From the NCBI RefSeq assembly GCF_000963865.1, contig NZ_CP011071.1:2360501-2424500 (forward strand): 64,000 bases of DNA, written 5' to 3'. Each line of letters opens with the position of its first letter. Positions within the stretch are counted from its first letter, which is position 1. The notes below the pieces were generated by a model. That model saw only the letters and a program-made list of their open reading frames with translations, was not told where the DNA came from and ran no database searches. Below, one piece after another: positions 41,165 through 62,475 of the stretch. This stretch comes from Flagellimonas lutaonensis. GTDB lineage: Bacteria > Bacteroidota > Bacteroidia > Flavobacteriales > Flavobacteriaceae. The translations under genes were made by a program, and so were the position numbers.

Positions 41165-41170
41165 TATTTG

Positions 41171-43266: not shown

Positions 43267-46200
43267 ATGGGAAAAATGCTTAAGATATTTGTCCTGTTCT
43301 TTTTATTGACAATTTCGATAGCGAATGCCCAAGATACTTATTATGATACCTTTAGTTCGGTTTCTTATTCGAACAACGATGGTACACAGAATTGGTCGAC
43401 GAACTGGATAGAATCTGGGGATGACAATTCTCCTTCAGGGGGGTACATTAGAATAACGGGCAACCAACTGAGATTCGCATATATCTGGACGGAGACTATC
43501 AGGCGGTCAGCAGACTTAAGCGCTTATTCTTCGGCAACCTTATCTTTTGATTGGCAAACTTCAAGCCTTGAATCCGGTGAAACACTTGATGTTCAGGTTT
43601 CCAGTGATGGTTCTTCATATACCACGTTGGCCACTTTTTCCGGAAATCAAAGTGGAACTTTTAGTCAAAATATTTCTGCACATATATCAAGCAATACCAC
43701 GATTAGGTTTATTAAGGGAGGCAACAATTGGTCAGGAAATAACGACCGTGTATATATTGATAATGTTTTAATAACTGCAACAGCCACAGCATCGGTAAGT
43801 ATAGCCGATGTTTCGGTCAATGAAGGTGATGGTACCGCTACTTTTATGGTACAGCATGTCGGACCTAATGCCACAGGGGCATTTACTGTAAATTTCACCA
43901 CCAATGATGGCACTGCGGTGGCCGGCAGTGATTATACCGCCAGCTCAGGTACATTGAGTTTTAACGGAACTAGCGGAGATACTGAAAGCATTACGGTACC
44001 TATTAACGACGATGGTGATTTTGAAGGACTGGAAACGTTTACCGTTTCGTTTACTGGTACCTCAGATGGTACGATCAATATTTCTGATACTGCCACAGGA
44101 AGTATAACAGATAACGATTTATTGGGCAACACGCCGTTGGCATTGTTCGAAGCCTTTGATGGATATGTTGACTATACCTCAACTGGTGGCACACTTCGAA
44201 CCCAACCTAATACTGGAGATGCATGCGCAATAACCACTTCTTCAAGCAATACATTGACGTCAAGTATTCCTGCCACTGCAACGATTCAAAAGGCACTACT
44301 ATATTGGGCCCACAGTGCTGCCACCCCTGATTCCCAAGTGACCTTTGAAGGTAATACAGTGACAGCCGATCTAATGTACACTACAACCCTTACCAATAGA
44401 GTATTTTTTGGCGGTGTAAGTGATGTTACCTCGATTGTCCAGGGCATTTCAAACCCATCAACAAACACCTATGACTTTACCGACCTAACAGTGGACAATA
44501 CCGGGAATTATTGCTCAACTGCAACGGTATTAGGTGGCTGGAGCCTTTTTATCTTTTACGAAGATGCCAGTTTGCCAGCCTCAACTGTTAACTTATACCA
44601 AGGGTTTAACGGAGAAAGCAATTCATCATCCTCGTTTAGTTTAAGCGGCTTTTTTGCTATAGGTGCCTCGGGTTCAAAAACCACAGTGCTTTCTTGGGAA
44701 GGCGACCAGACCCTCAGCAATAATGAACTACTTACGGTAACCACCGGTTTGGGAACCTTTACACTTGCGGGAGATGGAGACAACAATGGCGTAGCGGTGA
44801 ACAACCCGTTCAACTCCACCATTTTTGACAACACAATAATACCAAATGTGAACAATGCATCGGCATATGGCCTTGATCTAGACACCTACGATGTTTCGCC
44901 CTATATACAACCAGGGGAGTCAACCGTCACTACAAATGTTCAGTCAGGCCAAGATTTTGTAATTATGAACGCCTTAGTGCTCAAAGTACCTTCGAACCTG
45001 ATTACCGGTACGGTTTTCGAGGATGTAAATTATGGAGGTGGTGCCGGGAGAAACCGAGCATCATCTTCCGGGGTGGGGGTACAAGGCGCGACCGTTGAGC
45101 TATATGATGCGCTGAACAATTTTGTTGACAATACCACTACAGATGCGAACGGCCTGTATCGCTTTGGTGGCATGGCAAATGGTTCATATAGCGTACGGGT
45201 TGTCAATGGTACGGTACGTTCTACCCGAGGAGGCGGGGCCGCATGTAACACTTGTTGGCCTGTTCAGACCTTTAGAACAAGTTTTCCTGGCGGTTCGGTC
45301 ATTGAAGTGACCAATGAGGTAGGAGGGGCCGACCCTTCTGCTGAAGACAGTGCCGCCGGTACATTGACAGGCGCTCAGTCGGTGGCCCCTGTGTTGATAA
45401 CAAGTGAAGGGGTGGTCGGAATGGATTTTGGCTATAATTTCAATACTATTGTCAATACGAACGAGGACGGGCAGGGTTCATTGGAACAATTTATCGTAAA
45501 CGCCAATAATTTGGACGAGATAGGATTGGACATTGTTGCTAATTCTATTTTCGATCCGGCCGCTGGCCAAGACACCTCAATCTTTATGATACCCAGTAGT
45601 TCGGACCCCTTGGGCCGTACACCAGATTCCAATTTTGCGTCAGGATACTTCGATATTTTTATCTCAGACGGAAATCCCTTATCTGATATTACGGCGGATA
45701 ATACGTTTATAGATGGCCGAACCCAAACGGCTTATTCGGGAGACACAAATTCAGGTACAATCGGCGCAGGAGGCAACCCTGTTGGGGTTTCCGGCAGTTT
45801 ACTTCCAATTTTCGAGTTACCGGAAATACAAGTGCACAGAGATGGCGGTGACGTACTGAAGGTACAAGCAGATGTGGTGCTGCGTAACCTATCAATATAT
45901 GCCGATAATACAGCGGGAATTCAGGTTGGTAGCGGGTCGGCGGTTATTGAACGAAATTTGATCGGGGTCAATGCACAGGGCACAAATTCAGGAAATATAA
46001 ACTATGGAATTGAAAATATAGGAGGCAGCATTTTGATTGATGGCAATTACATTGCTACCAATACCGATGCAGGAATTTTTGTGAACGGTGGCACGACAAA
46101 CATTATTCAAAACAACCACATTACCAACAACGGCAATTCGGCTTGTACGGATAATATTCTCGTTCAGGGAGGTAGTGGTCTGGTCATTACACAAAATTTT

Positions 46201-46995
46201 ATTGAAAATGCAGCTTCTGCTGGCATTGATGCCTCTGCAAGTAGCGGTAACATCACAATCAGTGAAAACTCCATAACGGCTTCAGGGCAAGATGGGGGCA
46301 ACTGTAGTGGTAACATTGAAGGAATGGCAATAAAAATTGGAGGCAACAATTCCGTTGTCACGAACAATATGATTTATGCAAATGGTGGTGCTGGAATTGT
46401 TGTAGTGGGCGGAACCGCAAATCGAATAAGCCAGAATTCCATTTATGCCAATGGCACTATTTCTGATGCCCTCGGCATTGATTTGGATGCTTCCTCAGGG
46501 GCAGGCGACGGTGTCACCCTAAACGATAATGGCGATGGTGACACTGGGCCCAATGATCTTCAGAACTTCCCAATAATCTCAGCTGCCTATATCTCTGGAA
46601 GCAATCTTGTGGTAAAAGGATGGTCAAGACCGGGCGCCACCATAGAGTTTTTCTTTACGGATATTAATGAGGGTACGGCAACAACGGGTGACAACCAATT
46701 GGGTATGGCGGTTGATTATGGGGAGGGCCAGACTTTTATAGGTGCTGCCGTTGAAGGCAGTGGTGCTGATGCAGATAATACATCTTCGTCCTATTCCGAT
46801 GTTGATGGCAATACCGACAATACCAACAGATTCCATTTTAACCTTCCAGTGCCAAGCGGAGCCACTTTAGGAGAAATGATTACGGCAACCGCGACTTTGG
46901 GGAACAGTACTTCAGAATTTGCCCCCATGTCAATCTTGCGAGCGGCAACTGTTATTACCAATCGCAGAATCACCTATCGGGTGAGCAAAAACTAA
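43267..46995 (+). CDS. Secreted multidomain protein with Calx-beta, SdrD-B-like and right-handed beta-helix domains
   Basis: The 1242-residue protein has a signal peptide (IFVLFFLLTISIANA), a jelly-roll-like N-terminal domain (about 20-170), a Calx-beta motif (about 175-285, VSIADVSVNEGDGTATFMV ... ITDND), a middle domain, an SdrD-B-like collagen-binding-type repeat at about 578-650 (GTVFEDVNYGG, GATVELYDALNNFVD), and a parallel beta-helix (about 870-1080, with runs such as IIQNNHITNNGNSACTDNIL). It ends VITNRRITYRVSKN, a motif shared with the next gene. No type A or B sorting domain is recognised otherwise. I chose ATG 43267 over the TTG at 43258. Confidence 0.85.
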   Translation: MGKMLKIFVLFFLLTISIANAQDTYYDTFSSVSYSNNDGTQNWSTNWIESGDDNSPSGGYIRITGNQLRFAYIWTETIRRSADLSAYSSATLSFDWQTSSLESGETLDVQVSSDGSSYTTLATFSGNQSGTFSQNISAHISSNTTIRFIKGGNNWSGNNDRVYIDNVLITATATASVSIADVSVNEGDGTATFMVQHVGPNATGAFTVNFTTNDGTAVAGSDYTASSGTLSFNGTSGDTESITVPINDDGDFEGLETFTVSFTGTSDGTINISDTATGSITDNDLLGNTPLALFEAFDGYVDYTSTGGTLRTQPNTGDACAITTSSSNTLTSSIPATATIQKALLYWAHSAATPDSQVTFEGNTVTADLMYTTTLTNRVFFGGVSDVTSIVQGISNPSTNTYDFTDLTVDNTGNYCSTATVLGGWSLFIFYEDASLPASTVNLYQGFNGESNSSSSFSLSGFFAIGASGSKTTVLSWEGDQTLSNNELLTVTTGLGTFTLAGDGDNNGVAVNNPFNSTIFDNTIIPNVNNASAYGLDLDTYDVSPYIQPGESTVTTNVQSGQDFVIMNALVLKVPSNLITGTVFEDVNYGGGAGRNRASSSGVGVQGATVELYDALNNFVDNTTTDANGLYRFGGMANGSYSVRVVNGTVRSTRGGGAACNTCWPVQTFRTSFPGGSVIEVTNEVGGADPSAEDSAAGTLTGAQSVAPVLITSEGVVGMDFGYNFNTIVNTNEDGQGSLEQFIVNANNLDEIGLDIVANSIFDPAAGQDTSIFMIPSSSDPLGRTPDSNFASGYFDIFISDGNPLSDITADNTFIDGRTQTAYSGDTNSGTIGAGGNPVGVSGSLLPIFELPEIQVHRDGGDVLKVQADVVLRNLSIYADNTAGIQVGSGSAVIERNLIGVNAQGTNSGNINYGIENIGGSILIDGNYIATNTDAGIFVNGGTTNIIQNNHITNNGNSACTDNILVQGGSGLVITQNFIENAASAGIDASASSGNITISENSITASGQDGGNCSGNIEGMAIKIGGNNSVVTNNMIYANGGAGIVVVGGTANRISQNSIYANGTISDALGIDLDASSGAGDGVTLNDNGDGDTGPNDLQNFPIISAAYISGSNLVVKGWSRPGATIEFFFTDINEGTATTGDNQLGMAVDYGEGQTFIGAAVEGSGADADNTSSSYSDVDGNTDNTNRFHFNLPVPSGATLGEMITATATLGNSTSEFAPMSILRAATVITNRRITYRVSKN

Positions 46996-47131
46996 CATCA
47001 GAATTTTTTCTGTCAGAAAATGTAAATGGTTGGTTTTCAATCATAGATGACGATTTTGTTCATCTTCACAACATTTTTTTCTTGTCTTACGCTATTAAGT
47101 GCAACTTGCACATTACCAAGGACTTGGTTTT

Positions 47132-50100
47132 ATGAATTATCCAAAAATTACATTCGTTGGCCTGTATGTGTGGATTGCTCTTTCAATGCTGACGGTCTAT
47201 CCTGTTATGGGGCAAACGACTTTTACTGAAAGTGCTGCTGCCTATAACCTAAATATGGGAGGTGGTAAAGACGGTGGTCACGCATGGGCCGACTATGATT
47301 TGGATGGCGATTTTGATCTTGTGGTCAATACAAATGGCAGGGGTTATTTAATGCGAAACGATGGGGGTGGTTTTACCGATGTAACCTCATCGTTGGCCCC
47401 AGACTTTACAAGTGGAAGTCTGGAACGTACAGCATTGTTTGTAGATTTCAACAATGATGGGTATCCAGATATTTTCCGTAACAGACATAACGACGTGCGC
47501 ATCTATTTACAAGATCCAGCGACGAACCGTTTTGGAAATGGTACGGGGGGTACCGCGCCCAATCAGCGTTTTACTTCACTTGCTGATGGTATGAACACTG
47601 AGGGAGCCGGTGCGCTTGACTACGATGGCGACGGTGATTTGGACATCTTTATTGACAACCATAACTACGGTATTGATATTCTTCAGAATGACGGCAATGG
47701 CAATTTCACGCACGTAACCAGAAAAGCTGACAGTCCTAACCCACCTTATAATGTGGCCGACCCAACTACTTGGCCATTGGGATTGGTACAGGATGCAACG
47801 GATGGTGATTATGGCTCGGCAACGGATTTTAACGATGACGGCTGGGTTGATATCGTGGTGCGCAAGCGAAACCAAGTAGACCTTTTCACCAATCTCGGGG
47901 GTACTTTTCAAAATGGGGTCAATATCGATGATGCTAATAACAGTAACAAAGGTTCTGTGGCCTTTTATGATTTTGATAACGATGGTGATTTTGACCTTTT
48001 CTGGACAGAGAACGGAATCAACCAAATACACAGAAATAATGGGGATGGAACTTGGACCGGCCTAGGGGCAGCTACAGGAATTCCCATAAACTTTTCGGGT
48101 CAGATAGAGGGTCTTGCCTGTGGTGACGTAGACAACGATGGAGACATCGACATTTTTCTCACCGGAAGCAGTACCAGCAAATTGTATTTAAACCAAATAA
48201 ACAACGGTGGAGGGGCTATGTCCTTTATTGATTCAGGGCTTACCTTCAATGCCAATCCAGGTGAAGGATGTACGTTTATTGACGTAGACAATGATGGCGA
48301 TTTAGATCTTTATGTGAATAGATCGGGACCCAATAGACTTTACATCAATCAGTTGGGAGCCCTTTCTAGGCCCAATCACCTGTACATCAATATTATTGAG
48401 GATAGGGATGCTTTCGGACTCATCAATACCGAAGAGCGCTTTGGTGTGGGCGCTACATCAAAAATATTGGATTGTGACGGTAACGTAATTTCAGGAACAC
48501 GAGAAGTAAATGGTGGCTATGGCCATGGCACACAAGAAACTGGGGTCATCCATTTTGGGTTGCCCAGCGGGCCTTTGGTACCTATTGTGGTTGAGGTGGC
48601 ATATCCGAGAACCACAGGGGGCAGGGTAGTGGTCAGAAGACAACTGCGGCCTATAGATTTCAATAATGGAAGCATCAATATCGTGGATGTTTTTCCAGAT
48701 TCGGCCAACCAACCACCCACAGCCACTGATGACAGTGCGACCACTTTGGAAGATACACCGGTTACGCTAGACCCCTTGGTTGACAATGGTAATGGGGCCG
48801 ATACCGATCCTGAAGGGCAACCGTTGGAATTACTTTCAGTGACCCAACCGGCCAATGGCACCTCAGTGTTGAATGGTGACGGCACGGTCACTTATACCCC
48901 AGACCCAGGTTTTTTTGGAAGCGATTCCTTTACTTATACAATAAGGGATAATGCGATCTGCACCTTTACTTCAGAACAGGATACAGCAACGATATTCATC
49001 ACTGTCTATCGCGACAATGATAATGATGGTATTGATGATAGAAGCGATCTAGATGATGACAACGATGGTATTCCCGATGCGTTGGAGAACGATTGTGGCC
49101 CCGATATTTCTGGTTTTGATGCCCATTGGCCACTGGAAAATTCGACAAATGATAATTCCGGAAACGGGTACAATTTACAGGCAGGTTCGGTTGGCTACTC
49201 CAACGAGAGCGTCCATGGCTTGTCATCGGCCTCTTTTAACGGTGTTTCAAATTATTTACAGTACAGCGACGGCACTTTTTTGAACCAGAAGATTACCAAC
49301 TTTTCATATGCTTTTTGGATAAAGCCCAATAATTTGATTGGCATCCAAACATTGCTTGATGAAGGTGGTGGCACCAACGGTGTGGCCATTCGATTGAATG
49401 GAAATATTTTGGAAAATGCCATACGAGAAGGCGGTGCAGGGAGTCAGATGAGCACATCAAGCTTTACATTTCCAAATGATGGACAATGGCACCACATAGC
49501 CTTTACATATGATAACGGAACGGTGATTATGTATTTAGACGGCGTAGCGAGCACTGCTATAAACACCGGTTTCGGAACATTGGCGGCCCATGGTAGTGCC
49601 CATAGTTTTGGTAGAAGTAGCGGTGATGCCTTTGGGCAGGGTACGGGAAATTATTTCGGTGGACTGATGGTTGAAATTTTGCACTACCCAATTGTGCTTT
49701 CACAATCAGATATAAATAACCTGATTTACGGCACCTGCGATGAAGACGGTGACGGGGTTGCGAATACAATTGATTTAGACAGTGATAATGATGGTGTTTA
49801 TGATGCCGTTGAGGCTGGCCACACGCAGGGTCATACCGCCGGGGTCATTAGTGGCCCCTATGGCAACAATGGCTGGGCCAACGCCGTTGAAACCCTTCCA
49901 GAAAGCGGTATTGCTAATTATACCCTTTTGAATACGGATACAACGGGCAACCCTGATTTTCTTGATACTGACAGTGATGGTGATGGCTGTAGCGATGCCA
50001 ATGAGGCCTATGCCGACGCCAATGCCGATGGAGGCGACAATGATTATTACGGTACCGGAAATCCGCCTGTAATCAATGCAAACGGCTCGGTTGCAGGGGC

Positions 50101-50506
50101 ATTGTACCCAATACCCGCCGATGCGGACTCCAGTGGTACATTTGACTTTCATGAAGCAGGGGCTGCGCCGGTTATTTCGGTTCAACCATTTGATAGTCAA
50201 GCATGTCTGGGTTGTAGCGTTATATTTTTTGTAACTGTTTCAAACGCAGATGCTTATCAATGGCAGGTGTTCAATGGTTCAAGCTGGGTTGATCTCACCG
50301 ATATGGGCATTTACTCCGGCACCACTACCAATACCCTTAGTTTGACCAATATTACCACTACAGAAAACGGAAACCGGTATAGGGTCATATTGGATAGCCA
50401 GAGCTTTATCTGTGCCAATACCATATCAAATATAGCCGTGTTGACAGTACAGGTGAACACGGTGATCACCAATAGAAGAATTACCTATCGTGTGAACAAA
50501 AATTAG
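47132..50506 (+). CDS. Secreted FG-GAP/UnbV/LamG multidomain protein
   Basis: The 1124-residue protein has a signal peptide (FVGLYVWIALSMLTVYPVMG), FG-GAP/VCBS-type calcium repeats (about 45-400, e.g. DYDGDGDLDIFIDNHNYG and DVDNDGDIDIFLTGSST), an ASPIC/UnbV domain (about 433-506, with VSGTREVNGGYGHGTQE), a cadherin-like/tandem-type Ig domain (about 525-620, DDSATTLEDTPVTLDPL), a short TSP3 stretch, a LamG-like lectin domain (about 660-850), more TSP3 repeats and a C-terminal Ig-like domain. It ends VITNRRITYRVNKN. The GTG at 47099 is an unlikely start. Probably a surface-bound carbohydrate- or matrix-binding protein. Confidence 0.87.
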   Translation: MNYPKITFVGLYVWIALSMLTVYPVMGQTTFTESAAAYNLNMGGGKDGGHAWADYDLDGDFDLVVNTNGRGYLMRNDGGGFTDVTSSLAPDFTSGSLERTALFVDFNNDGYPDIFRNRHNDVRIYLQDPATNRFGNGTGGTAPNQRFTSLADGMNTEGAGALDYDGDGDLDIFIDNHNYGIDILQNDGNGNFTHVTRKADSPNPPYNVADPTTWPLGLVQDATDGDYGSATDFNDDGWVDIVVRKRNQVDLFTNLGGTFQNGVNIDDANNSNKGSVAFYDFDNDGDFDLFWTENGINQIHRNNGDGTWTGLGAATGIPINFSGQIEGLACGDVDNDGDIDIFLTGSSTSKLYLNQINNGGGAMSFIDSGLTFNANPGEGCTFIDVDNDGDLDLYVNRSGPNRLYINQLGALSRPNHLYINIIEDRDAFGLINTEERFGVGATSKILDCDGNVISGTREVNGGYGHGTQETGVIHFGLPSGPLVPIVVEVAYPRTTGGRVVVRRQLRPIDFNNGSINIVDVFPDSANQPPTATDDSATTLEDTPVTLDPLVDNGNGADTDPEGQPLELLSVTQPANGTSVLNGDGTVTYTPDPGFFGSDSFTYTIRDNAICTFTSEQDTATIFITVYRDNDNDGIDDRSDLDDDNDGIPDALENDCGPDISGFDAHWPLENSTNDNSGNGYNLQAGSVGYSNESVHGLSSASFNGVSNYLQYSDGTFLNQKITNFSYAFWIKPNNLIGIQTLLDEGGGTNGVAIRLNGNILENAIREGGAGSQMSTSSFTFPNDGQWHHIAFTYDNGTVIMYLDGVASTAINTGFGTLAAHGSAHSFGRSSGDAFGQGTGNYFGGLMVEILHYPIVLSQSDINNLIYGTCDEDGDGVANTIDLDSDNDGVYDAVEAGHTQGHTAGVISGPYGNNGWANAVETLPESGIANYTLLNTDTTGNPDFLDTDSDGDGCSDANEAYADANADGGDNDYYGTGNPPVINANGSVAGALYPIPADADSSGTFDFHEAGAAPVISVQPFDSQACLGCSVIFFVTVSNADAYQWQVFNGSSWVDLTDMGIYSGTTTNTLSLTNITTTENGNRYRVILDSQSFICANTISNIAVLTVQVNTVITNRRITYRVNKN

Positions 50507-50939: not shown

Positions 50940-53900
50940 ATGAAAAAGATAGTAATTTTCATCCTCTTCCTATTCGTTTCTGGTTATGGACTTGCCCAGA
51001 CAACGGTGACCCTTCAAGATCAATGTAATTGCGAGGTGTTAAGCGGAACAGATGTCTCAGCCCCAGGGGCCACAACTCCTGCGGGTGCCGATACGGGTGA
51101 CATATATGTCAATACCAGTACAGGAACCATTTACTTTTGGGATGGAGACTCATGGGAACTGACATCTACTGATGACCAACAACTACAGAATTTTAGTTTC
51201 GATAGTGGTACCAATGTGTTATCACTGCAGATTGAAGATGGAAACACTGTAACTGTAAATCTATCGGCTTTGAGCAATGCCGGAAGTGACGACCAAACTA
51301 TTTCAACCGATGGTACTTCGGGCAATATCACAATTGAAGATGGCAACACCCTGAACCTAAACGTTGACGATGCCGATGCCGACCCGACCAACGAGATAAC
51401 CACTGTGACCAACAACGGTGACGGTACCAGCACCATTGCAGACGTAAATGGTGGAACGGTAACGGTCGATAATGATGGCGTTGACAATGTGGACGACGCC
51501 GATAATGACCCAACCAATGAATTGCAGAACGCCGCCCAAGTGAGCTTTGACGATACGGTGGCAGGTCTTGGTGAAACTGATGTGCAGGGGGCAATTGAAG
51601 CTTTGGCCGCCAGTAATGCAGCCGATAATGATACAGACCCGACCAACGAGCTACAGGACATCAGTACCAACGGCACTTCCGGTGACATCAGCATTAGTGG
51701 GGGCAGTAACATTACATTGAACGTTGATGACGCCGATAGCGACCCTACCAACGAGATAACCACGGTGACCGACAACGGTGACGGTACCAGCACCATTGCA
51801 GACGTAAATGGTGGAACGGTAACGGTGGATAATGATGGTGTTGACAATGTGGATGATGCCGATAATGACCCGACCAATGAGAACCAGACGGTTTCTGCAG
51901 GTGTTGGGATCTCGGTCAATCAGACGGGTAACGACTTTCAAGTGACCAATACGTCCCCTGACCAGACAGTGACCTTGGCAGATGGTGGTGCCGGCAACGT
52001 TACCATTGGCGGCAGCTATCCCAACTTTACCATAGATGTGACATCTCTTGATGACGCCGATAGCGACCCAACAAACGAGATACAGAACCTGAACGAGGTA
52101 CTGGCCGACGGCAACGACGGTGGCGGACAGGCCATCGCCAACATCGCCGACCCTACCAACCCGCAGGACGCCGCGACCAAGAACTATGTGGACAGCATCA
52201 GCGTTGACGACGCGGATGCGGACCCGACCAACGAGCTACAGGACATCAGTACCAACGGCACTGCCGGTGACATCAGCATTAGTGGGGGCAGTAACATTAC
52301 ATTGAACGTTGATGACGCCGATAGCGACCCAACAAACGAGATACAGAACCTGAACGAGGTACTGGCCGACGGCAACGACGGTGGCGGACAGGCCATCGCC
52401 AACATCGCCGACCCTACCAACCCGCAGGACGCCGCGACCAAGAACTATGTGGACAGCATCAGCGTTGACGACGCGGATGCGGACCCGACCAACGAGCTAC
52501 AGGACATCAGTACCAACGGCACTGCCGGTGACATCAGCATTAGTGGGGGCAGTAACATTACATTGAACGTTGATGACGCCGATAGCGACCCTACCAACGA
52601 GATAACCACTGTGACCGACAACGGTGACGGTACCAGCACCATTGCAGATGTAAATGGTGGAACGGTAACGGTGGATAACGATGGTGTTGACAATGTGGAC
52701 GATGCCGATAATGACCCTACCAACGAGATACAGAACCTGAACGAGGTACTGGCCGACGGCAACGACGGTGGCGGACAGGCCATCGCCAACATCGCCGACC
52801 CTACCAACCCGCAGGACGCCGCTACCAAGAACTATGTGGACAACATCAGCGTTGACGACGCGGATGCTGACCCGACCAACGAATACAACACGGCCTTCAC
52901 GGTGACGGGCGGCAACCTCCGTATCACCGATGGCGGTGGCAACCTTGACGTTCCGTTGAGTTCCATCGACACGGATGACCAAGACCTTGGCATTGGCGCT
53001 GGCGGAGTCGCCAACGAGAGTATTGAAGTGACGATAACAGATGGTTCAAGCACCATCATTGACATTCGCGATGCGGATTCAGATATTACCAATGAACTTT
53101 CACAAGTTGGTGCGGGTACTCCGGCCGCAACAGGGGCCACTGCCTCCAATGTTGGTGAGACTTATGTCGATACCACTACAGGTCAATTATACGTATGGGA
53201 TGGTAGTGCATGGACTCAGGTAGGTGGTAACGCATCTCCAGATGCCGACCCGGACCCGACCAACGAGATACAGAACCTGAACGAGGTACTGGCCGACGGC
53301 AACGACGGTGGCGGACAGGCCATCACGAACATCGCCGACCCGACCAATCCTCAGGACGCTGCCACGAAGAACTATGTGGACAGCATCAGCGTTGACGACG
53401 CGGATGCGGACCCGACCAACGAGCTACAGGACATCAGTACCAACGGCACTTCCGGTGACATCAGCATTAGTGGGGGCAGTAACATTACATTGAACGTTGA
53501 TGACGCCGATAGCGACCCTACCAACGAGATAACCACGGTGACCGACAACGGTGACGGTACCAGCACCATTGCAGACGTAAATGGTGGAACGGTAACGGTG
53601 GATAATGATGGTGTTGACAATGTGGACGATGCCGATAATGACCCGACCAATGAGAACCAGACGGTTTCTGCAGGTGTTGGGATCTCGGTCAATCAGACGG
53701 GTAACGACTTTCAAGTGACCAATACGTCCCCTGACCAGACAGTGACCTTGGCAGATGGTGGTGCCGGCAACGTTACCATTGGCGGCAGCTATCCCAACTT
53801 TACCATAGATGTGACATCTCTTGATGACGCCGATAGCGACCCAACAAACGAGATAACCACTGTGACCGACAACGGAGACGGTACCAGCACCATTGCAGAC

Positions 53901-56900
53901 GTAAATGGTGGAACGGTAACGGTGGATAACGATGGTGTGGACAATGTGGATGATGCCGATAATGACCCGACCAACGAGATAACCACTGTGACCGACAACG
54001 GAGACGGTACCAGCACCATTGCAGACGTAAATGGTGGAACGGTAACGGTGGATAACGATGGTGTTGACAATGTGGACGATGCCGATAATGACCCTACCAA
54101 CGAGATAACCACTGTGACCGACAACGGTGACGGTACCAGCACCATTGCAGATGTAAATGGTGGAACGGTAACGGTGGATAACGATGGTGTTGACAATGTG
54201 GACGATGCCGATAATGACCCTACCAACGAGATACAGAACCTGAACGAGGTACTGGCCGACGGCAACGACGGTGGCGGACAGGCCATCGCCAACATCGCCG
54301 ACCCTACCAACCCGCAGGACGCCGCTACCAAGAACTATGTGGACAACATCAGCGTTGACGACGCGGATGCTGACCCGACCAACGAATACAACACGGCCTT
54401 CACGGTGACGGGCGGCAACCTCCGTATCACCGATGGCGGTGGCAACCTTGACGTTCCGTTGAGTTCCATCGACACGGATGACCAAGACCTTGGCATTGGC
54501 GCTGGCGGAGTCGCCAACGAGAGTATTGAAGTGACGATAACAGATGGTTCAAGCACCATCATTGACATTCGCGATGCGGATTCAGATATTACCAATGAAC
54601 TTTCACAAGTTGGTGCGGGTACTCCGGCCGCAACAGGGGCCACTGCCTCCAATGTTGGTGAGACTTATGTCGATACCACTACAGGTCAATTATACGTATG
54701 GGATGGTAGTGCATGGACTCAGGTAGGTGGTAACGCATCTCCAGATGCCGACCCGGACCCGACCAACGAGATACAGAACCTGAACGAGGTACTGGCCGAC
54801 GGCAACGACGGTGGCGGACAGGCCATCACGAACATCGCCGACCCGACCAATCCTCAGGACGCTGCCACGAAGAACTATGTGGACAGCATCAGCGTTGACG
54901 ACGCGGATGCGGACCCGACCAACGAGCTACAGGACATCAGTACCAACGGCACTTCCGGTGACATCAGCATTAGTGGGGGCAGTAACATTACATTGAACGT
55001 TGATGACGCCGATAGCGACCCTACCAACGAGATAACCACGGTGACCGACAACGGTGACGGTACCAGCACCATTGCAGACGTAAATGGTGGAACGGTAACG
55101 GTGGATAATGATGGTGTTGACAATGTGGACGATGCCGATAATGACCCGACCAATGAGAACCAGACGGTTTCTGCAGGTGTTGGGATCTCGGTCAATCAGA
55201 CGGGTAACGACTTTCAAGTGACCAATACGTCCCCTGACCAGACAGTGACCTTGGCAGATGGTGGTGCCGGCAACGTTACCATTGGCGGCAGCTATCCCAA
55301 CTTTACCATAGATGTGACATCTCTTGATGACGCCGATAGCGACCCAACAAACGAGATAACCACTGTGACCGACAACGGAGACGGTACCAGCACCATTGCA
55401 GACGTAAATGGTGGAACGGTAACGGTGGATAACGATGGTGTGGACAATGTGGATGATGCCGATAATGACCCGACCAACGAGATAACCACTGTGACCGACA
55501 ACGGAGACGGTACCAGCACCATTGCAGACGTAAATGGTGGAACGGTAACGGTGGATAACGATGGTGTTGACAATGTGGACGATGCCGATAATGACCCTAC
55601 CAACGAGATAACCACTGTGACCGACAACGGTGACGGTACCAGCACCATTGCAGATGTAAATGGTGGAACGGTAACGGTGGATAACGATGGTGTTGACAAT
55701 GTGGACGATGCCGATAATGACCCTACCAACGAGATACAGAACCTGAACGAGGTACTGGCCGACGGCAACGACGGTGGCGGACAGGCCATCGCCAACATCG
55801 CCGACCCTACCAACCCGCAGGACGCCGCTACCAAGAACTATGTGGACAACATCAGCGTTGACGACGCGGATGCTGACCCGACCAACGAATACAACACGGC
55901 CTTCACGGTGACGGGCGGCAACCTCCGTATCACCGATGGCGGTGGCAACCTTGACGTTCCGTTGAGTTCCATCGACACGGATGACCAAGACCTTGGCATT
56001 GGCGCTGGCGGAGTCGCCAACGAGAGTATTGAAGTGACGATAACAGATGGTTCAAGCACCATCATTGACATTCGCGATGCGGATTCAGATATTACCAATG
56101 AACTTTCACAAGTTGGTGCGGGTACTCCGGCCGCAACAGGGGCCACTGCCTCCAATGTTGGTGAGACTTATGTCGATACCACTACAGGTCAATTATACGT
56201 ATGGGATGGTAGTGCATGGACTCAGGTAGGTGGTAACGCATCTCCAGATGCCGACCCGGACCCGACCAACGAGATACAGAACCTGAACGAGGTACTGGCC
56301 GACGGCAACGACGGTGGCGGACAGGCCATCACGAACATCGCCGACCCGACCAATCCTCAGGACGCTGCCACGAAGAACTATGTGGACAGCATCAGCGTTG
56401 ACGACGCGGATGCGGACCCGACCAACGAGCTACAGGACATCAGTACCAACGGCACTTCCGGTGACATCAGCATTAGTGGGGGCAGTAACATTACATTGAA
56501 CGTTGATGACGCCGATAGCGACCCTACCAACGAGATAACCACGGTGACCGACAACGGTGACGGTACCAGCACCATTGCAGACGTAAATGGTGGAACGGTA
56601 ACGGTGGATAATGATGGTGTTGACAATGTGGACGATGCCGATAATGACCCGACCAATGAGAACCAGACGGTTTCTGCAGGTGTTGGGATCTCGGTCAATC
56701 AGACGGGTAACGACTTTCAAGTGACCAATACGTCCCCTGACCAGACAGTGACCTTGGCAGATGGTGGTGCCGGCAACGTTACCATTGGCGGCAGCTATCC
56801 CAACTTTACCATAGATGTGACATCTCTTGATGACGCCGATAGCGACCCAACAAACGAGATAACCACGGTGACCGACAACGGAGACGGTACCAGTACGATT

Positions 56901-59753
56901 GCCGATGTGAACGGTGGGACCGTGACAGTGGATAATGATGGTGTTGACAATGTTGACGACGCGGATGCTGACCCGACCAACGAGATACAGAACCTGAACG
57001 AGGTACTGGCCGATGGCAACGACGGTGGCGGACAGGCCATCACGAACCTGGCGGACCCTACCAACCCACAGGACGCCGCGACCAAGAACTATGTGGACAA
57101 CATCAGTGTTGACGACGCGGATGCTGACCCGACCAACGAGCTACAGGACATCAGTACCAACGGCACTGCCGGTGACATCAGCATTAGTGGGGGCAGTAAC
57201 ATTACATTGAACGTTGATGACGCCGATAGCGACCCTACCAACGAGATAACCACGGTGACCGACAACGGAGACGGTACCAGCACCATTGCAGACGTAAATG
57301 GTGGAACGGTAACGGTCGATAACGATGGTGTGGACAATGTGGACGATGCGGATGCTGACCCGACCAACGAGCTACAGGACATCAGTACCAACGGCACTGC
57401 CGGTGACATCAGCATTAGTGGGGGCAGTAACATTACATTGAACGTTGATGACGCCGATAGCGACCCGACCAACGAGATAACCACTGTGACCGACAACGGA
57501 GACGGTACCAGTACGATTGCCGATGTGAACGGTGGGACCGTGACAGTGGATAATGATGGTGTTGACAATGTTGGCGATGCGGATGCTGACCCGACCAACG
57601 AGCTACAGGACATCAGCACCAATGGTTCTGCCGGTGACATCAGCATTAGTGGGGGCAGTAACATTACATTGAACGTTGATGACGCGGATGCTGACCCGAC
57701 CAACGAGATACAGAACCTGAACGAGGTACTGGCCGACGGCAACGACGGTGGCGGACAGGCCATCACGAACATCGCCGACCCGACCAATCCTCAGGACGCT
57801 GCCACGAAGAACTATGTGGACAGCATCAGCGTTGACGACGCGGATGCGGACCCGACCAACGAGCTACAGGACATCAGTACCAACGGCACTTCCGGTGACA
57901 TCAGCATTAGTGGGGGCAGTAACATTACATTGAACGTTGATGACGCCGATAGCGACCCTACCAACGAGATAACCACGGTGACCGACAACGGTGACGGTAC
58001 CAGCACCATTGCAGACGTAAATGGTGGAACGGTAACGGTGGATAATGATGGTGTTGACAATGTGGACGATGCCGATAATGACCCGACCAATGAGAACCAG
58101 ACGGTTTCTGCAGGTGTTGGGATCTCGGTCAATCAGACGGGTAACGACTTTCAAGTGACCAATACGTCCCCTGACCAGACAGTGACCTTGGCAGATGGTG
58201 GTGCCGGCAACGTTACCATTGGCGGCAGCTATCCCAACTTTACCATAGATGTGACATCTCTTGATGACGCCGATAGCGACCCAACAAACGAGATAACCAC
58301 TGTGACCGACAACGGAGACGGTACCAGTACGATTGCCGATGTGAACGGTGGGACCGTGACAGTGGATAATGATGGTGTTGACAATGTTGACGACGCGGAT
58401 GCTGACCCGACCAACGAGATACAGAACCTGAACGAGGTACTGGCCGATGGCAACGACGGTGGCGGACAGGCCATCACGAACCTGGCGGACCCTACCAACC
58501 CACAGGACGCCGCGACCAAGAACTATGTGGACAACATCAGTGTTGACGACGCGGATGCTGACCCGACCAACGAGCTACAGGACATCAGTACCAACGGCAC
58601 TGCCGGTGACATCAGCATTAGTGGGGGCAGTAACATTACATTGAACGTTGATGACGCCGATAGCGACCCTACCAACGAGATAACCACGGTGACCGACAAC
58701 GGAGACGGTACCAGCACCATTGCAGACGTAAATGGTGGAACGGTAACGGTCGATAACGATGGTGTGGACAATGTGGACGATGCGGATGCTGACCCGACCA
58801 ACGAGATACAGAACCTGAACGAGGTATTGGCCGACGGCAACGACGGTGGCGGACAGGCCATCGCCAACATCGCCGACCCTACCAATCCACAGGACGCCGC
58901 TACCAAGAACTATGTGGACAACATCAGCGTTGACGACGCGGATGCTGACCCGACCAACGAATACAACACGGCCTTCACGGTGACGGGCGGCAACCTCCGT
59001 ATCACCGATGGCGGTGGCAACCTTGACGTTCCGTTGAGCTCATTGGGCACCGACGACCAGAACCTGTCCGAGGTACTTACCGAGGGCAACGATGCCGGTG
59101 GATCGGCCATCACAAACTTGACGGACCCTACCAACCCGCAGGACGCTGCCACGAAGGCATACGTAGACGCGATAGCAGACGACGATGTAAGCGTTACCAA
59201 CACAGTTGCAGGAAACCGAATAGCAACCATTTCAGAACCTGGTACGGCAGCGGTGGATATCAATGAGACTGTAACCTCACTGTCTCAAAATACCACGACC
59301 GGTGTTATCAGCTATACTGATGAAGATGGCGGAGCGCCGCAAACAGCCAATGTTGTGGGAAGTGAAGCTGATAACATGATAACAGTAGGCTCAAATGGCG
59401 GTGCCTATCTAGTGGCAATGCCAACCATTTATGCAACTGGAAAAGTTAATGGTAACGGAACCGCCGCAGCTATATATCAAGCAACGGTGTCAAGGCTCAA
59501 CGAAGGTGATTATCAAATTACTTTCACTACGGCCCTACCAAACGCAAACTATATCATTCAGCTTTCAACCATTGATTGTGGGGGGGATTGTCCCGGTAAC
59601 ACATCTGCCAATTATGATGACCCTGGCATCACATATTATAATCAAACCACTACAGGTTTCAGGGTCAATATTGGAGACAGTGATAATGGTACTACCCAAA
59701 AGGATGATATCGACTTAGAATTCATGTTTACAGTAATAACCATACCAAACTAA
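50940..59753 (+). CDS. Giant modular repeat protein (2937 residues) with tail-fibre-like modules
   Basis: Signal peptide MKKIVIFILFLFVSGYGLAQ, then a short cysteine pair (DQCNCEV), then an almost wholly repetitive body built of about six module types, each introduced by a D-x-D-x-DPTNE linker: ITTVTDNGDGTSTIADVNGG; IQNLNEVLADGNDGGGQAI with DPTNPQDAATKNYVD; LQDISTNGTAGDISISGGSN; YNTAFTVTGGNLRITDGGGN; ETYVDTTTGQLYVWDGSAWT; NQTVSAGVGISVNQTGNDFQ. The DPTNPQDAATKNYVD segments resemble phage tail-fibre repeats, and the acidic linkers may bind calcium. A non-repetitive C-terminal domain (about 2800-2937) is not a recognised T9SS signal. It starts a four-gene operon. Upstream in-frame starts (50877 TTG, 50916 ATG) are less likely than the ATG 50940 before the signal peptide. 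Confidence 0.85.
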   Translation: MKKIVIFILFLFVSGYGLAQTTVTLQDQCNCEVLSGTDVSAPGATTPAGADTGDIYVNTSTGTIYFWDGDSWELTSTDDQQLQNFSFDSGTNVLSLQIEDGNTVTVNLSALSNAGSDDQTISTDGTSGNITIEDGNTLNLNVDDADADPTNEITTVTNNGDGTSTIADVNGGTVTVDNDGVDNVDDADNDPTNELQNAAQVSFDDTVAGLGETDVQGAIEALAASNAADNDTDPTNELQDISTNGTSGDISISGGSNITLNVDDADSDPTNEITTVTDNGDGTSTIADVNGGTVTVDNDGVDNVDDADNDPTNENQTVSAGVGISVNQTGNDFQVTNTSPDQTVTLADGGAGNVTIGGSYPNFTIDVTSLDDADSDPTNEIQNLNEVLADGNDGGGQAIANIADPTNPQDAATKNYVDSISVDDADADPTNELQDISTNGTAGDISISGGSNITLNVDDADSDPTNEIQNLNEVLADGNDGGGQAIANIADPTNPQDAATKNYVDSISVDDADADPTNELQDISTNGTAGDISISGGSNITLNVDDADSDPTNEITTVTDNGDGTSTIADVNGGTVTVDNDGVDNVDDADNDPTNEIQNLNEVLADGNDGGGQAIANIADPTNPQDAATKNYVDNISVDDADADPTNEYNTAFTVTGGNLRITDGGGNLDVPLSSIDTDDQDLGIGAGGVANESIEVTITDGSSTIIDIRDADSDITNELSQVGAGTPAATGATASNVGETYVDTTTGQLYVWDGSAWTQVGGNASPDADPDPTNEIQNLNEVLADGNDGGGQAITNIADPTNPQDAATKNYVDSISVDDADADPTNELQDISTNGTSGDISISGGSNITLNVDDADSDPTNEITTVTDNGDGTSTIADVNGGTVTVDNDGVDNVDDADNDPTNENQTVSAGVGISVNQTGNDFQVTNTSPDQTVTLADGGAGNVTIGGSYPNFTIDVTSLDDADSDPTNEITTVTDNGDGTSTIADVNGGTVTVDNDGVDNVDDADNDPTNEITTVTDNGDGTSTIADVNGGTVTVDNDGVDNVDDADNDPTNEITTVTDNGDGTSTIADVNGGTVTVDNDGVDNVDDADNDPTNEIQNLNEVLADGNDGGGQAIANIADPTNPQDAATKNYVDNISVDDADADPTNEYNTAFTVTGGNLRITDGGGNLDVPLSSIDTDDQDLGIGAGGVANESIEVTITDGSSTIIDIRDADSDITNELSQVGAGTPAATGATASNVGETYVDTTTGQLYVWDGSAWTQVGGNASPDADPDPTNEIQNLNEVLADGNDGGGQAITNIADPTNPQDAATKNYVDSISVDDADADPTNELQDISTNGTSGDISISGGSNITLNVDDADSDPTNEITTVTDNGDGTSTIADVNGGTVTVDNDGVDNVDDADNDPTNENQTVSAGVGISVNQTGNDFQVTNTSPDQTVTLADGGAGNVTIGGSYPNFTIDVTSLDDADSDPTNEITTVTDNGDGTSTIADVNGGTVTVDNDGVDNVDDADNDPTNEITTVTDNGDGTSTIADVNGGTVTVDNDGVDNVDDADNDPTNEITTVTDNGDGTSTIADVNGGTVTVDNDGVDNVDDADNDPTNEIQNLNEVLADGNDGGGQAIANIADPTNPQDAATKNYVDNISVDDADADPTNEYNTAFTVTGGNLRITDGGGNLDVPLSSIDTDDQDLGIGAGGVANESIEVTITDGSSTIIDIRDADSDITNELSQVGAGTPAATGATASNVGETYVDTTTGQLYVWDGSAWTQVGGNASPDADPDPTNEIQNLNEVLADGNDGGGQAITNIADPTNPQDAATKNYVDSISVDDADADPTNELQDISTNGTSGDISISGGSNITLNVDDADSDPTNEITTVTDNGDGTSTIADVNGGTVTVDNDGVDNVDDADNDPTNENQTVSAGVGISVNQTGNDFQVTNTSPDQTVTLADGGAGNVTIGGSYPNFTIDVTSLDDADSDPTNEITTVTDNGDGTSTIADVNGGTVTVDNDGVDNVDDADADPTNEIQNLNEVLADGNDGGGQAITNLADPTNPQDAATKNYVDNISVDDADADPTNELQDISTNGTAGDISISGGSNITLNVDDADSDPTNEITTVTDNGDGTSTIADVNGGTVTVDNDGVDNVDDADADPTNELQDISTNGTAGDISISGGSNITLNVDDADSDPTNEITTVTDNGDGTSTIADVNGGTVTVDNDGVDNVGDADADPTNELQDISTNGSAGDISISGGSNITLNVDDADADPTNEIQNLNEVLADGNDGGGQAITNIADPTNPQDAATKNYVDSISVDDADADPTNELQDISTNGTSGDISISGGSNITLNVDDADSDPTNEITTVTDNGDGTSTIADVNGGTVTVDNDGVDNVDDADNDPTNENQTVSAGVGISVNQTGNDFQVTNTSPDQTVTLADGGAGNVTIGGSYPNFTIDVTSLDDADSDPTNEITTVTDNGDGTSTIADVNGGTVTVDNDGVDNVDDADADPTNEIQNLNEVLADGNDGGGQAITNLADPTNPQDAATKNYVDNISVDDADADPTNELQDISTNGTAGDISISGGSNITLNVDDADSDPTNEITTVTDNGDGTSTIADVNGGTVTVDNDGVDNVDDADADPTNEIQNLNEVLADGNDGGGQAIANIADPTNPQDAATKNYVDNISVDDADADPTNEYNTAFTVTGGNLRITDGGGNLDVPLSSLGTDDQNLSEVLTEGNDAGGSAITNLTDPTNPQDAATKAYVDAIADDDVSVTNTVAGNRIATISEPGTAAVDINETVTSLSQNTTTGVISYTDEDGGAPQTANVVGSEADNMITVGSNGGAYLVAMPTIYATGKVNGNGTAAAIYQATVSRLNEGDYQITFTTALPNANYIIQLSTIDCGGDCPGNTSANYDDPGITYYNQTTTGFRVNIGDSDNGTTQKDDIDLEFMFTVITIPN
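52588..56880 (+). repeat. Higher-order 1503-bp tandem repeats in the giant gene (about 2.9 copies)
   Basis: Long blocks recur exactly 1503 bases apart (for example 52734/54237/55740 and 53308/54811/56314), each carrying a fixed order of about ten smaller modules (501 residues). By eye, the copies are near-identical. Smaller repeats of about 126 bp lie within them, and shuffled modules lie outside the array at 51360-52590 and 56880-59030. Confidence 0.93.
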
Positions 59754-59775: not shown

Positions 59776-60426
59776 ATGAAAAGACTAATTTTTTTACTGA
59801 CCATTGTTGTGGTGATGTCATTTTCGATGTCAGTTAATGCGCAGATAGATGCAGGTTCTGTAATGGGAATGCCCACGGGAACCACGGCTGAGATAAATGC
59901 CATTACAACGGCAAATATTGGTTCTACTGCCTTTAACACGGATGATGAATCAATTTATTGGTATACATCGTCAGGATGGGTAAAGGCTATGGATGATCAA
60001 TTCGATGACGAGGTACAACTGAGGACGGCAATCGATGTAGATGAGGGCGGGGAATCCAGTCCAACCTCCGAAGCTACGGTGAAAGAGGTGATTGATGCCA
60101 TTGCTCCCATTACCTCAAAGGCAGCACGGGTATTTTATCCACCTTCCATAGCGATAGATGCCTCAACAAATGGAACGGGTAGAACGGTAAATCTTTATAC
60201 CGAATATGTTAACCAATTTGCCTCTATCAATACAGTGGCCAGTACCGGGGCGCCAGCTGCGGTACCTACCTACGCGGCCAACGAGCTTTATTATTATGTT
60301 ACATATTACGATCCAACGGTTTTTGACAATATTTCTATAGATGCCAATGGGGTCATGACCTACGACATCATAGGTCAACCAGCCGACTACAATTCGCTGA
60401 TCAACGTAGTGTTCGTGGTCAAGTAA
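59776..60426 (+). CDS. Secreted protein of unknown function in the giant-protein operon
   Basis: A 216-residue protein with signal peptide (LIFLLTIVVVMSFSMSVNA) and a module (about 35-70: GSTAFNTDDESIYWYTSSGW) that resembles the G-x-Y-x-W...W modules of the preceding giant protein. The rest, ending YNSLINVVFVVK, is not recognised. It is 22 bases after the giant gene and its stop touches the next start (TAAATG), so it is in the same operon and may be a partner or end-cap of the giant protein. That is inference. Confidence 0.75.
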   Translation: MKRLIFLLTIVVVMSFSMSVNAQIDAGSVMGMPTGTTAEINAITTANIGSTAFNTDDESIYWYTSSGWVKAMDDQFDDEVQLRTAIDVDEGGESSPTSEATVKEVIDAIAPITSKAARVFYPPSIAIDASTNGTGRTVNLYTEYVNQFASINTVASTGAPAAVPTYAANELYYYVTYYDPTVFDNISIDANGVMTYDIIGQPADYNSLINVVFVVK

Positions 60427-62475
60427 ATGTTAAAAACAACAACCAAATCTTTGAAAAAAGGACATCCAAATAAAATTTTCAGACTCCTACTGTTCATATT
60501 CACGGTAAGTGTTTCAACACTTCAAGGGCAATTTCTTTTGCAAGCGCCCAATAGTGGTGATGAGAGCAATTATAGGTGGTACGAGGCCTCAGATACGTCA
60601 ACGGTTCTGGGTACAGACTCCTTTTATGAAGCGACCCAACCGGGGGTGTATTTTGCCACCTACGATGGTACGCTATGTGGTTCAAATGCCACAGGATACT
60701 TCATCCTCACAAATTGTAATGCACCGGATAATGAAGTGACTTTGGACATTTCTGCCAGTATCCCTTCTGGAGCCACCGTAAGTTGGAGTCCCGTATTGTC
60801 AGGAGACCAGACCAGACCAATGGTAACCGCGACCCAAACGGTTGAAAGATATGTGGCGACCATAACAAAGGCGGGAAACAGTAGTGCGCTTCCCCGTTTT
60901 ACGGTTGTTTGCCTAGAGCAAGCAGCTACCCTTGTTGATGATTTTATTACGGTCAATGAAGATGAATCCATAGCGGTTCCCATCTTTGACAACGACTCCG
61001 ATTTGCCTACTACAGGTAATTTGACCACTTCAGACCCACCCAATGGTTCAGTGAATATAAATGACAACGGTACCCCGAATAATCCTACTGACGATATCGT
61101 GACCTATATTCCCGATCCCGATTTCAATGGCACAGATTCTTTTACATACACCGTATGCAATTCTTCGGGAGATTGTAGTACTGCGACCGTTACCGTGGAT
61201 GTTTTGCCAATTGTCGATGCTTTTGACGATTCTGTTTCCACAGAGCAAGACACCCCGGTTGATATAGACATCTTGGCCAACGACAATGATTTACCAACCG
61301 TTGGAACGCTGACAACACCTGTTGCGTCAAATGGAACAGTATCTATCAACGATAATGGCACACCGAACGATCCGTCTGATGATACCGTGACCTATACGCC
61401 CAATGCAGGGTTTACAGGCACTGATACGTTTGATTATACGATTTGTGACAATTTAGGAAATTGCAGCACCACAACTGTGACCGTTGTGGTGACCCCACCT
61501 GCCGTTTCTGATATTGATAGTGATGATGACGGTATTGTTGACAGTTTTGAAGATTTGAATGTTGATGGAGACAACGACCCATCGACCAATCCTACAGATA
61601 CCGATGGTGATGGTATTCCCGATTATTTAGACATCGATAGTGATGATGATGGAGTTCCAGATAATGTGGAAGCCCAGACCACTGCCGGTTATATTCCGCC
61701 GAGCGGTGATGATCTTGATGGAAATGGTTTGGACGATGCCTATGAAAATGGAGGTAATCTTGGCCTGATACCGGTTGACACAGACGGTGATGGAATACCT
61801 GATTATGTTGATGAGGATAGTGACGACGATGGGGTGCCTGACAATATCGAAGCCCATGACTTTGACCATGATGGTGTGCCAGATGTGGTGTTTATGGGAT
61901 CTGATAAGGACAATGATGGTCTAGATGATGGCTATGAAGGGGACACACAGATTGATAGTGATGTAAATGATGAAATCGACGACCCTGCCAATGATTTGCC
62001 AAATACCGATAACACCGATGATGTGGATTATCGTGATATCGACGACGACGACGACGGTATTGAGACCAGGGACGAAGACTTAGATCAAGACGGCAACTTT
62101 GCCAACGATGATTCTGATGGGGACGGTACACCAAATTACTTGGATCCTGACCTGGGTATGACAGACGACGATGAAATAGAGGTCTTTAATGTGGTGACCC
62201 CTAATGGTGATGGGGTACATGACGTACTGACCATAAGAAATATTGAAAATTATCCAAACAACACTGTAAAGATCTATAACCGATGGGGCGTACTGGTATT
62301 TACGACCAGGGCCTATAACTCCTCAGGAAATGTCTTTGATGGTACCTCTGAAGGTAGGGTGACCGTTGATCAAGACAACAAGTTGCCGGTTGGTACGTAC
62401 TTCTATATTATAGATTACGAAGACCTGAACGGTAACATGAAACAACTTTCTGGTTACATATACATAAACAGGTAA
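60427..62475 (+). CDS. TSP3-repeat surface protein with T9SS type B C-terminal domain
   Basis: A 682-residue secreted protein: signal peptide ([15 protein letters not shown]), an N-terminal Ig-like domain with two Cys, two cadherin-like/Ig repeats (about 175-355, with [20 protein letters not shown]), TSP3-like calcium repeats (about 360-575), and a gliding-motility-type C-terminal domain (about 580-682: [42 protein letters not shown]). Its TSP3 block is a single, normal-GC copy of the unit that is amplified in the gene at 35377, for example [20 protein letters not shown], which matches the repeat almost word for word. It is followed by a PorP/SprF gene. Confidence 0.9.

Follow-up and report, generated by a model that had tools for sequence, protein, structure and literature searches.

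A giant phage-fibre-like protein in a nine-gene type B/PorP island of Flagellimonas lutaonensis

The giant fibre protein and its island

The 64,000-nucleotide stretch of the Flagellimonas lutaonensis chromosome analysed here (NZ_CP011071.1, positions 2,360,501 to 2,424,500; hereafter the window, from whose first letter all positions are counted) contains a nine-gene island at 35377-63441, entirely on the + strand, between prfC and idi; the island's neighbours in the window are rpoC, prfC and idi. In this order it encodes a type B protein, bearing a C-terminal domain (CTD) of the type IX secretion system (T9SS), a PorP, a PorE-like protein, two proteins with the C-terminal tail ITNRRITYRV, a giant fibre protein, a small protein, and a second type B protein and PorP. 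Signal peptides were recognised by eye on all nine products. A first-pass annotation of this DNA had placed the fibre in an operon with a small secreted protein, a type B adhesin and a PorP. The family assignments of these genes agree with that description, the small protein having no family, and the four genes lie as claimed; the unit itself is larger, as the block extends upstream to 35377 and comprises nine genes.

The giant fibre is encoded by the frame 50940-59753 (+), which opens with an ATG and ends with its stop codon. Its features are as follows.

50940-59753, +: giant fibre protein, 2937 amino acids (aa); signal peptide by eye, no T9SS CTD
50997-51158, +: mature N-terminal domain, QTTVTLQDQCNCEVLSG...GDIYVNTSTGTIYFWDGDSWE; Cys-Asn-Cys, then a WDGxxW module
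51381-58961, +: repetitive stalk, bounded by its first and last DPTNE linkers; 54 linkers in all, modules of six recurrent types
52170-52193 (first) to 59145-59168 (last), +: AATK[NA]YVD motifs, 13 in all
53154-53213, +: WDGSAW module, copy 1; Mtd_N-type (Pfam Mtd_N, three stretches)
54657-54716 and 56160-56219, +: WDGSAW module, copies 2 and 3; Mtd_N-type
59421-59750, +: C-terminal head domain; tail-fibre-tip-like predicted fold, with its own C-x3-C

Splitting the protein at its D[IP]TNE linkers (51 DPTNE and 3 DITNE) yielded 17 distinct segments, of which 14 fall into six recurrent types; residues 148-2674 are filled by these six types and one single segment. The AATK[NA]YVD motif occurs 13 times and GQLYVWDGSAW three times, and two blocks of 1503 nucleotides are 100% identical at the DNA level, a sign of recent tandem duplication. 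The chain is strongly acidic (27 Lys and Arg against 578 Asp and Glu, a net charge of -551), and its four cysteines are at residues 29, 31, 2880 and 2884. No Gly-X-Y runs were seen in its listed segments. A signal peptide was recognised by eye (MKKIVIFILFLFVSGYGLAQ), and the first cysteine lies about 10 residues into the likely mature chain, with the cleavage site judged in the same manner; a lipoprotein was rejected, since no lipobox cysteine is visible at +1 (GYGLAQTTVTLQDQCNC).

The likeness to phage tail fibres came from several searches. The WDGxxW module corresponds to Pfam Mtd_N, which matched the giant fibre in three stretches with 34 bits (cut-off 26.3); Phage_T7_tail (PF03906) reached 48 bits over the whole protein against a cut-off of 25.2, with every single stretch below it. 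Seven PHROGs families matched, in 13 stretches each (best E 2.7e-57), and four of them are named as tail or tail-fibre families. A profile of the AATKNYVD module matched the solved phage fibres gp9 (6.4e-7, over 24 residues), gp47 (6.8e-4) and the KN1 depolymerase (3.1e-3) and, more weakly, phage hyaluronidases, the matches spanning some 18-27 residues. Several of these solved fibres are trimers. Frame, module counts and the Pfam, PHROGs and solved-fibre matches thus agree with the first-pass description of a long modular protein of the tail-fibre type.

The head, comprising the C-terminal 110 residues (alignment A1, 45 rows), was predicted to be all-beta by AlphaFold2 as a monomer, with a predicted local distance difference test score of 86.1 and a predicted template modelling score of 0.78. 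Against predicted viral proteins (BFVD) the model gave 56 matches at E<=1e-3, and the named proteins among the best 50 are mostly marine-phage tail fibres, besides uncharacterised phage proteins. The top matches by VIA-align were the receptor-binding domain of the Pam1 tailspike (Z 8.2, 1.8 A over 70 residues) and the phiAB6 tailspike (Z 8.1), although a Z of about 8 is close to the tool's stated background and can reflect a mere common arrangement; a shrimp-virus envelope protein, other tailspikes, discoidins, H-type lectins and pyocin fibres came next. By profile, the head matched the C-terminus of the phage tail protein gp13 in the PDB (9occ, E 3e-6). Gp53-like_C scored 15.9 bits on the window head (cut-off 24.9); at E<=0.1, 11 of the 45 family members matched Phage_tail_C_2 and 3 matched Gp53-like_C. 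In viral contigs 91 pattern matches were found, none of which tblastn confirmed as a relative, and known phages gave two weak tail-fibre matches (E 5e-3). The models point to a phage-tip-like domain, rather than a sorting signal, and this would probably be a binding domain.

The 216-aa small protein appears to be built of an Mtd-N-like domain, a helix and a C-terminal beta domain ending in INVVFVVK. It had no sequence relative in the PDB at E<=10, no convincing Pfam match and no Foldseek match at E<=1e-3.

Conservation of the island and related cassettes

Nine other genera, selected through tail-protein matches, were read at the corresponding locus. In all nine the order is tail protein(s), giant fibre, (small protein), type B protein and PorP, with idi beyond; one (G172) has an extra type B gene ahead of idi. 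The whole island, running from prfC to idi as in the window, was found in G056, G160, G172, G182 and G191. In G108 the first type B gene was seen only as a 224-aa open reading frame (ORF) and the fibre is partly masked, and for G026 and G032 the stretch examined stops short of prfC. The place of type B protein 1 is also held by a type B gene in relatives, and the PorE gene adjoins the tail genes in eight of the nine genera, lying after the second PorP in G143. In eight genera the fibre and the small protein form one ORF of 2329-4618 aa, whose C-terminal end is 49-81% identical to the small protein of the window; only G108 has them split, like the window. This fusion strongly indicates that the two function as a single fibre. 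Complete giant ORFs range from 2153 to 4618 aa. The genes therefore belong together, as first proposed: independent distribution of the operon's genes had been named beforehand as an outcome that would refute this, and it was not seen in the loci read.

A tail-independent check was made with the 82-residue N-terminus of the fibre as the only query. It matched 52 of the 299 Flavobacteriaceae genomes at E<=1e-4, and for 45 of these E was below 1e-20. In the best 30 of these loci the nearest long same-strand ORF ahead of the fibre encodes a tail protein 29 times (26 with the strict pattern, three with NK or NS for NR) and PorE once; the only frames listed between this ORF and the fibre are of 60-117 aa, and the distance from its stop to the codons of the mature fibre N-terminus is 345-885 bp. 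In the class sample, whose family members are shown only in part, the N-terminus was found in 1 of 198 genomes, its own.

The repeats that lie between the conserved ends differ from genus to genus. Two of the eight complete fused fibres have collagen stalks, with 270 and 346 Gly-X-Y triplets, and the other six have stalks of other kinds; Gly-X-Y runs are present in the homologues of G026 and G172. As judged from these sequences, the stalks appear interchangeable. A collagen helix requires three chains, and the same N-terminus carries collagen stalks in two genera; together with the Mtd_N-type modules, this makes it likely that the fibre is a trimer.

Beyond the island, 44 of the 299 family genomes have head domains, as do 62 named loci (from Allomuricauda, Croceitalea, Eudoraea, Robiginitalea, Croceivirga, Aureicoccus, Aquimarina, Tenacibaculum and others). 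Several genomes belong to both samples, the one of the family (L031-L074) and the one of named contigs (L075-L136). In the named set 57 of 72 head frames are followed within 10 kb by a type B gene on the same strand, while four have none, 11 are undecidable and no gene on the opposite strand was seen; in the family set 36 of 47 are so followed, with nine lacking such a gene, two undecidable and one with it on the opposite strand. Across the phylum the head was found at E<=1e-3 in 9 of 395 genomes, six from its own family and three weak ones from outside; SprA is present in 304 of the 395, which renders co-occurrence uninformative, and one of the weak outside genomes (G528, 4e-5) is absent among the SprA-positive genomes listed.

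Outside the island the partner is usually a type B protein of a family of 380-395 aa (the 385-aa family), found in 26 of 100 genomes. Of its 25 strong places the 14 that the other locus sets did not already cover were examined: a fibre-N gene lies directly upstream on the same strand in nine, a collagen, head-bearing or stalk-like ORF in four, and a companion gene with a fibre-N gene beyond it in one. Fibre N-domains at these 14 loci number 12 among 243 ORFs. A related cassette in Aquimarina mytili encodes a collagen-like protein of 2410 aa whose head belongs to the head family of the window's fibre.

Further arrangements were seen along the way. The genome of the window has a second cassette (L201, G000:C1:2286001-2306000), in which a 1440-aa VKIGDNP-type fibre with a coiled-coil-like end lies beside a 388-aa type B frame. 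At L216, L217 and L220, in what looks like a related arrangement, a fibre-type gene is followed in turn by the genes of a protein ending in VITNPMLPSKAK or similar, a type B protein of about 410 aa and a PorP; L216 and L220 also have a PorE-like gene, and in two of the three loci the VITNPMLPSKAK-type proteins have lectin or CshA-type domains. At L131, L133, L135 and L136 the head belongs to short proteins of 167-396 aa, and the 10 kb downstream contain no type B gene. In 47 of the 62 named loci a contig end lies within 5 kb upstream of the head; repeats thus appear to break assemblies, and such fibres may be under-reported in databases.

Flanking genes, export and anchoring

The other features of the island are the following.

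35377-40197, +: type B protein 1, 1606 aa; CHU_C type IX sorting domain (Pfam, 86.1 bits, cut-off 27)
40214-41164, +: PorP/SprF shuttle 1, 316 aa; PF11751, 301.9 bits; no Cys outside the signal peptide
41168-43102, +: PorE-like protein, 644 aa; TPR, PD40 propeller, CarboxypepD_reg and OmpA domain (Pfam)
43258-46995, +: tail-motif protein 1; Calx-beta, beta helix, SdrD_B; ends in VITNRRITYRVSKN
46945-46992, +: its ITNRRITYRV tail; alignment A5, profile match 1.5e-18
47099-50506, +: tail-motif protein 2; FG-GAP, Big_9, laminin-G/lectin fold; ends in VITNRRITYRVNKN
50456-50503, +: its ITNRRITYRV tail; alignment A5, profile match 9.1e-16
59776-60426, +: small fibre protein, 216 aa; Mtd-N-like domain, helix, C-terminal beta domain
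60427-62475, +: type B protein 2; N-terminal region, two Big_9 stretches, Asp-rich repeats, CHU_C/TIGR04131
62485-63441, +: PorP/SprF shuttle 2, 318 aa; TIGR03519, 275.7 bits (cut-off 90.55); no Cys

From the fibre through the small protein, type B protein 2 and PorP 2 the genes are separated by 22, 0 and 9 bp, and a gap of 433 bp lies upstream of the fibre gene. For tail-motif protein 1 the earliest start is a TTG, a later ATG being the likely true start; for tail-motif protein 2 the earliest start is a GTG. The PorE-like protein fell below the NCBIfam cut-offs for T9SS_PorE (NF052230, 322.6 against 600 bits) and CHU_0125_OmpA (419.3 against 620); the order TPR, PD40, CarboxypepD_reg and OmpA is present, and it is therefore called PorE-like. 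The Asp-rich repeats of type B protein 1 resemble TSP3 by eye, with Pfam TSP3_bac at only 12.1 bits against a cut-off of 25. Opposite these repeats lie two long antisense ORFs, 36175-39915 (-) and 36557-39520 (-), of 1246 and 987 aa, which are probably a by-product of codon composition.

Type B protein 2 exceeded the cut-offs for TIGR04131 (48.2 against 35 bits) and CHU_C (97.5 against 27), and both island PorPs belong to the PorP/SprF family (PF11751 or TIGR03519 over cut-off). The giant fibre had no NCBIfam match at E<=1, with neither TIGR04131 nor the type A domain TIGR04183 found, and no CHU_C in Pfam. The earlier remark that its C-terminal domain is no known T9SS signal therefore holds, and the predicted tip-like fold agrees with it.

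According to one report (PMC12618676), type B CTDs require a cognate PorP/SprF shuttle, and a type B-PorP-PorE set has been proposed to form a static, wall-bound complex with the PorE homologue as its anchor. SprF, in contrast, attaches to the moving track through a Cys-x-Cys in its C-tail (PMC12635249). None of the 18 island PorPs listed has a cysteine after residue 30, hence no such motif, and the fibre is accordingly predicted to be static.

Cysteines elsewhere in the island are well conserved. Cys-Asn-Cys was found at the fibre N-terminus in all of the best 30 fibre-N loci, drawn from 52 genomes; these were found by homology and so test the motif, which 12 further giants, picked by a cysteine-containing pattern, do not. 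It supplies the only cysteines of the eight fused fibres. The mature chain of type B protein 2 has seven cysteines in every one of the 21 chains that the pattern recognised, out of 27 sequences examined (nine genomes, the window and 17 loci). Two close pairs (C-x5-C and C-x7-C in G143) leave three, at least one of which would be free for another chain. The Cys-Asn-Cys of the fibre and the odd number in type B protein 2 suggest a covalent bond between fibre and anchor, or possibly between fibre chains.

The C-terminus VITNRRITYRV is common to two otherwise different large secreted proteins of the window, both with adhesion-type domains. In the first two locus sets 28 of 1634 ORFs have the motif within their final 22 residues, and it occurs elsewhere only three times in 486,599 aa. 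The tail profile matched 32 of 199 family genomes (E<=0.01), and in the genome of the window it matched the two island genes only. Sixteen tail loci were considered: one (G108) was already complete, eight were extended, and of the remaining seven six reached into the fibre ORF and one (G150) did not. A fibre ORF follows the tail gene(s) in 15 of the 16, with contig ends or masked bases truncating four of these ORFs; in 14 loci a PorE-like gene lies ahead of the tail gene(s). The tail is a possible new sorting or docking signal.

A proposed surface fibre and its alternatives

Taken together, these observations lead us to favour, with some reserve, a reading in which the product of the island is a homotrimeric, acidic surface fibre of great length, held through type B protein 2 and PorP 2; adhesion would be its function. 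Three giant chains would register at the N-terminal domain with its Cys-Asn-Cys and WDGxxW module, and beyond it a repetitive stalk of freely variable sequence would follow. Two receptor-binding ends may be present, one formed by the phage-tip-like head in which the giant chain ends and one by the small protein, which has a gene of its own. Type B protein 2 would be the T9SS-exported partner and PorP 2 its shuttle and membrane seat; the upstream type B-PorP-PorE-like set could provide a static foundation bound to peptidoglycan, and the ITNRRITYRV-tailed proteins may serve as further surface adhesins.

A more specific version goes well beyond this and seems to us doubtful. In it the CTD-less fibre, the tip protein and the tailed adhesins would all be carried and held by one CTD-bearing type B partner; the Cys-Asn-Cys of the fibre would bond the odd cysteine of type B protein 2 or link the three chains; the 15-residue ITNRRITYRV tail would be a new docking signal; and the stalk, whether phage-type, acidic or collagen, would be a spacer of free length and free sequence.

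Several points weigh against the favoured reading. Besides the selection of the nine genera through their tail proteins, G143 has no type B-PorP pair upstream and no PorE there; in Croceitalea dokdonensis (L082, outside the best 30) PorE directly precedes the fibre, without tail genes in that place; and the giants at L043 and L049 have no type B gene within about 8 kb. Foldseek found no PDB match of the head at E<=1e-3, and the profile search that matched gp13 also matched an unrelated gelation factor (1.4e-5), while the small protein scored Z of only 3.3-4.5 against Mtd and collagen trimerisation domains. Lastly, an export signal of known type (TIGR04131 or TIGR04183) was found on neither the giant fibre, the small protein nor the tail proteins of the window, and the surface location of the fibre is thus inferred from homology and neighbourhood.

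One alternative, less probable but deserving attention, is that neither export nor anchoring of the fibre depends on the type B/PorP pairs, that it perhaps leaves through SprA with a signal not yet recognised or takes a different route, and that the island is only a group of co-regulated surface genes. The missing TIGR04131 and TIGR04183 would fit this, as would the fact that the type B partner in other cassettes is of the different 385-aa family, and the gap upstream of the fibre, in the window as in the best 30 loci, suggests a promoter of its own. Yet fibres of a different type are usually also followed by a type B gene, the 385-aa type B places mostly have a fibre-N gene directly upstream (9 of the 14 examined), and the small protein, type B 2 and PorP 2 genes stand only 0-22 bp apart.

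The first-pass annotation had also suggested that calcium bound at the DxDxDPTNE linkers makes the fibre rigid. The Asp-rich spacing of the window's 51 DPTNE and 3 DITNE linkers is of the kind this would call for, but the linkers are not conserved: a same-genus homologue of 3143 aa has only three DPTNE-like sites and instead DDADSVVGN after 28 of its 32 AATKNYVD modules, and in eight other genera the number of D[X][TSN]NE sites is 0-18 (0-36 if the pattern is loosened), two of these genera using collagen stalks. The linker and its supposed calcium are therefore not the principle of the fibre, and we consider calcium stiffening improbable.

Still harder to sustain is the proposal that the fibre N-terminus stays in the periplasm, disulphide-linked through its Cys-x-Cys to GldK like the C-tail of SprF, and that the fibre rides the gliding track. 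The motif has the same Cys-Xaa-Cys form as the SprF C-tail (PMC12635249) and is missing from all 18 listed island PorPs, but no way is known of leaving the N-terminus of a trimer in the periplasm, and the PorE-like gene indicates static anchoring. Finally, a remnant of a phage, tailocin or extracellular contractile injection system, with the giant as the captured tail fibre of a contractile particle, was rejected despite the tail-fibre repeats and tip-like domain, given the signal peptides on all nine products, the lack of sheath, tube and baseplate genes among them, the fixed place between prfC and idi in relatives read far enough, and the failure to confirm a close tip relative in viral contigs, although phages gave two weak tail-fibre matches.

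Among known systems, those close to the proposed fibre assembly include the type B-PorP-PorE complexes (F. johnsoniae Fjoh_3952/3951/3950; P. gingivalis PG1035/PorP/PorE), with which the island shares gene order, type B CTDs and the PorP family; it differs in having two type B/PorP pairs flanking a CTD-less fibre, a small protein and tail-motif proteins, and fibre partners are not mentioned in four sections of PMC12618676. With phage tail fibres (T7-tail-type, gp53-like tips, Mtd N-domain) the giant fibre has the repeats, the WDGxxW module and the tip-like head in common, but it is cell-encoded, has a signal peptide, reaches 2153-4618 aa and lies in an island without phage genes. Collagen-like adhesins (Scl, Lcl) resemble the Aquimarina mytili homologue and two island fibres in their collagen stalk, whereas the stalk of the window is not collagen and no LPXTG or other sorting signal is present. 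Trimeric autotransporters would share the working principle of a long trimeric surface fibre; unlike them, the giant has no C-terminal anchor barrel (Pfam, E<=1). No description of such an island was found in the open-licence papers searched on type IX secretion, PorP/SprF, fibres, collagen-like proteins or the literal tail.

Type B/PorP/PorE sets of the T9SS are known, but carried partners beyond a single CTD-bearing protein are not, and here a syntenic island pairs such sets with CTD-less fibres of up to 4618 residues. If these are exported with the type B partner, this would be a carrier mode for a secretion system thought to need a CTD on each cargo, and the short tail, if its proposed role is true, would be a new signal. 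The swap of phage-type and collagen stalks on the same ends offers a natural experiment in fibre design.

The SprB-SprF gliding adhesin is likewise a very large surface protein with a dedicated PorP/SprF shuttle, but SprB carries a type B CTD and the fibre none, and the island PorPs are without the Cys-x-Cys tail of SprF. Homology of the island to SprC/SprD was considered and rejected, as the likely sprB region of the same genome has a type B-like protein and a PorP-like fusion but no fibre. The genes ahead of the likely sprB gene in that region (L221, G000:C1:1425001-1445000) encode a PorP-like fusion of 690 aa and a protein of 751 aa whose end is type B-like; these are possibly SprD and SprC.

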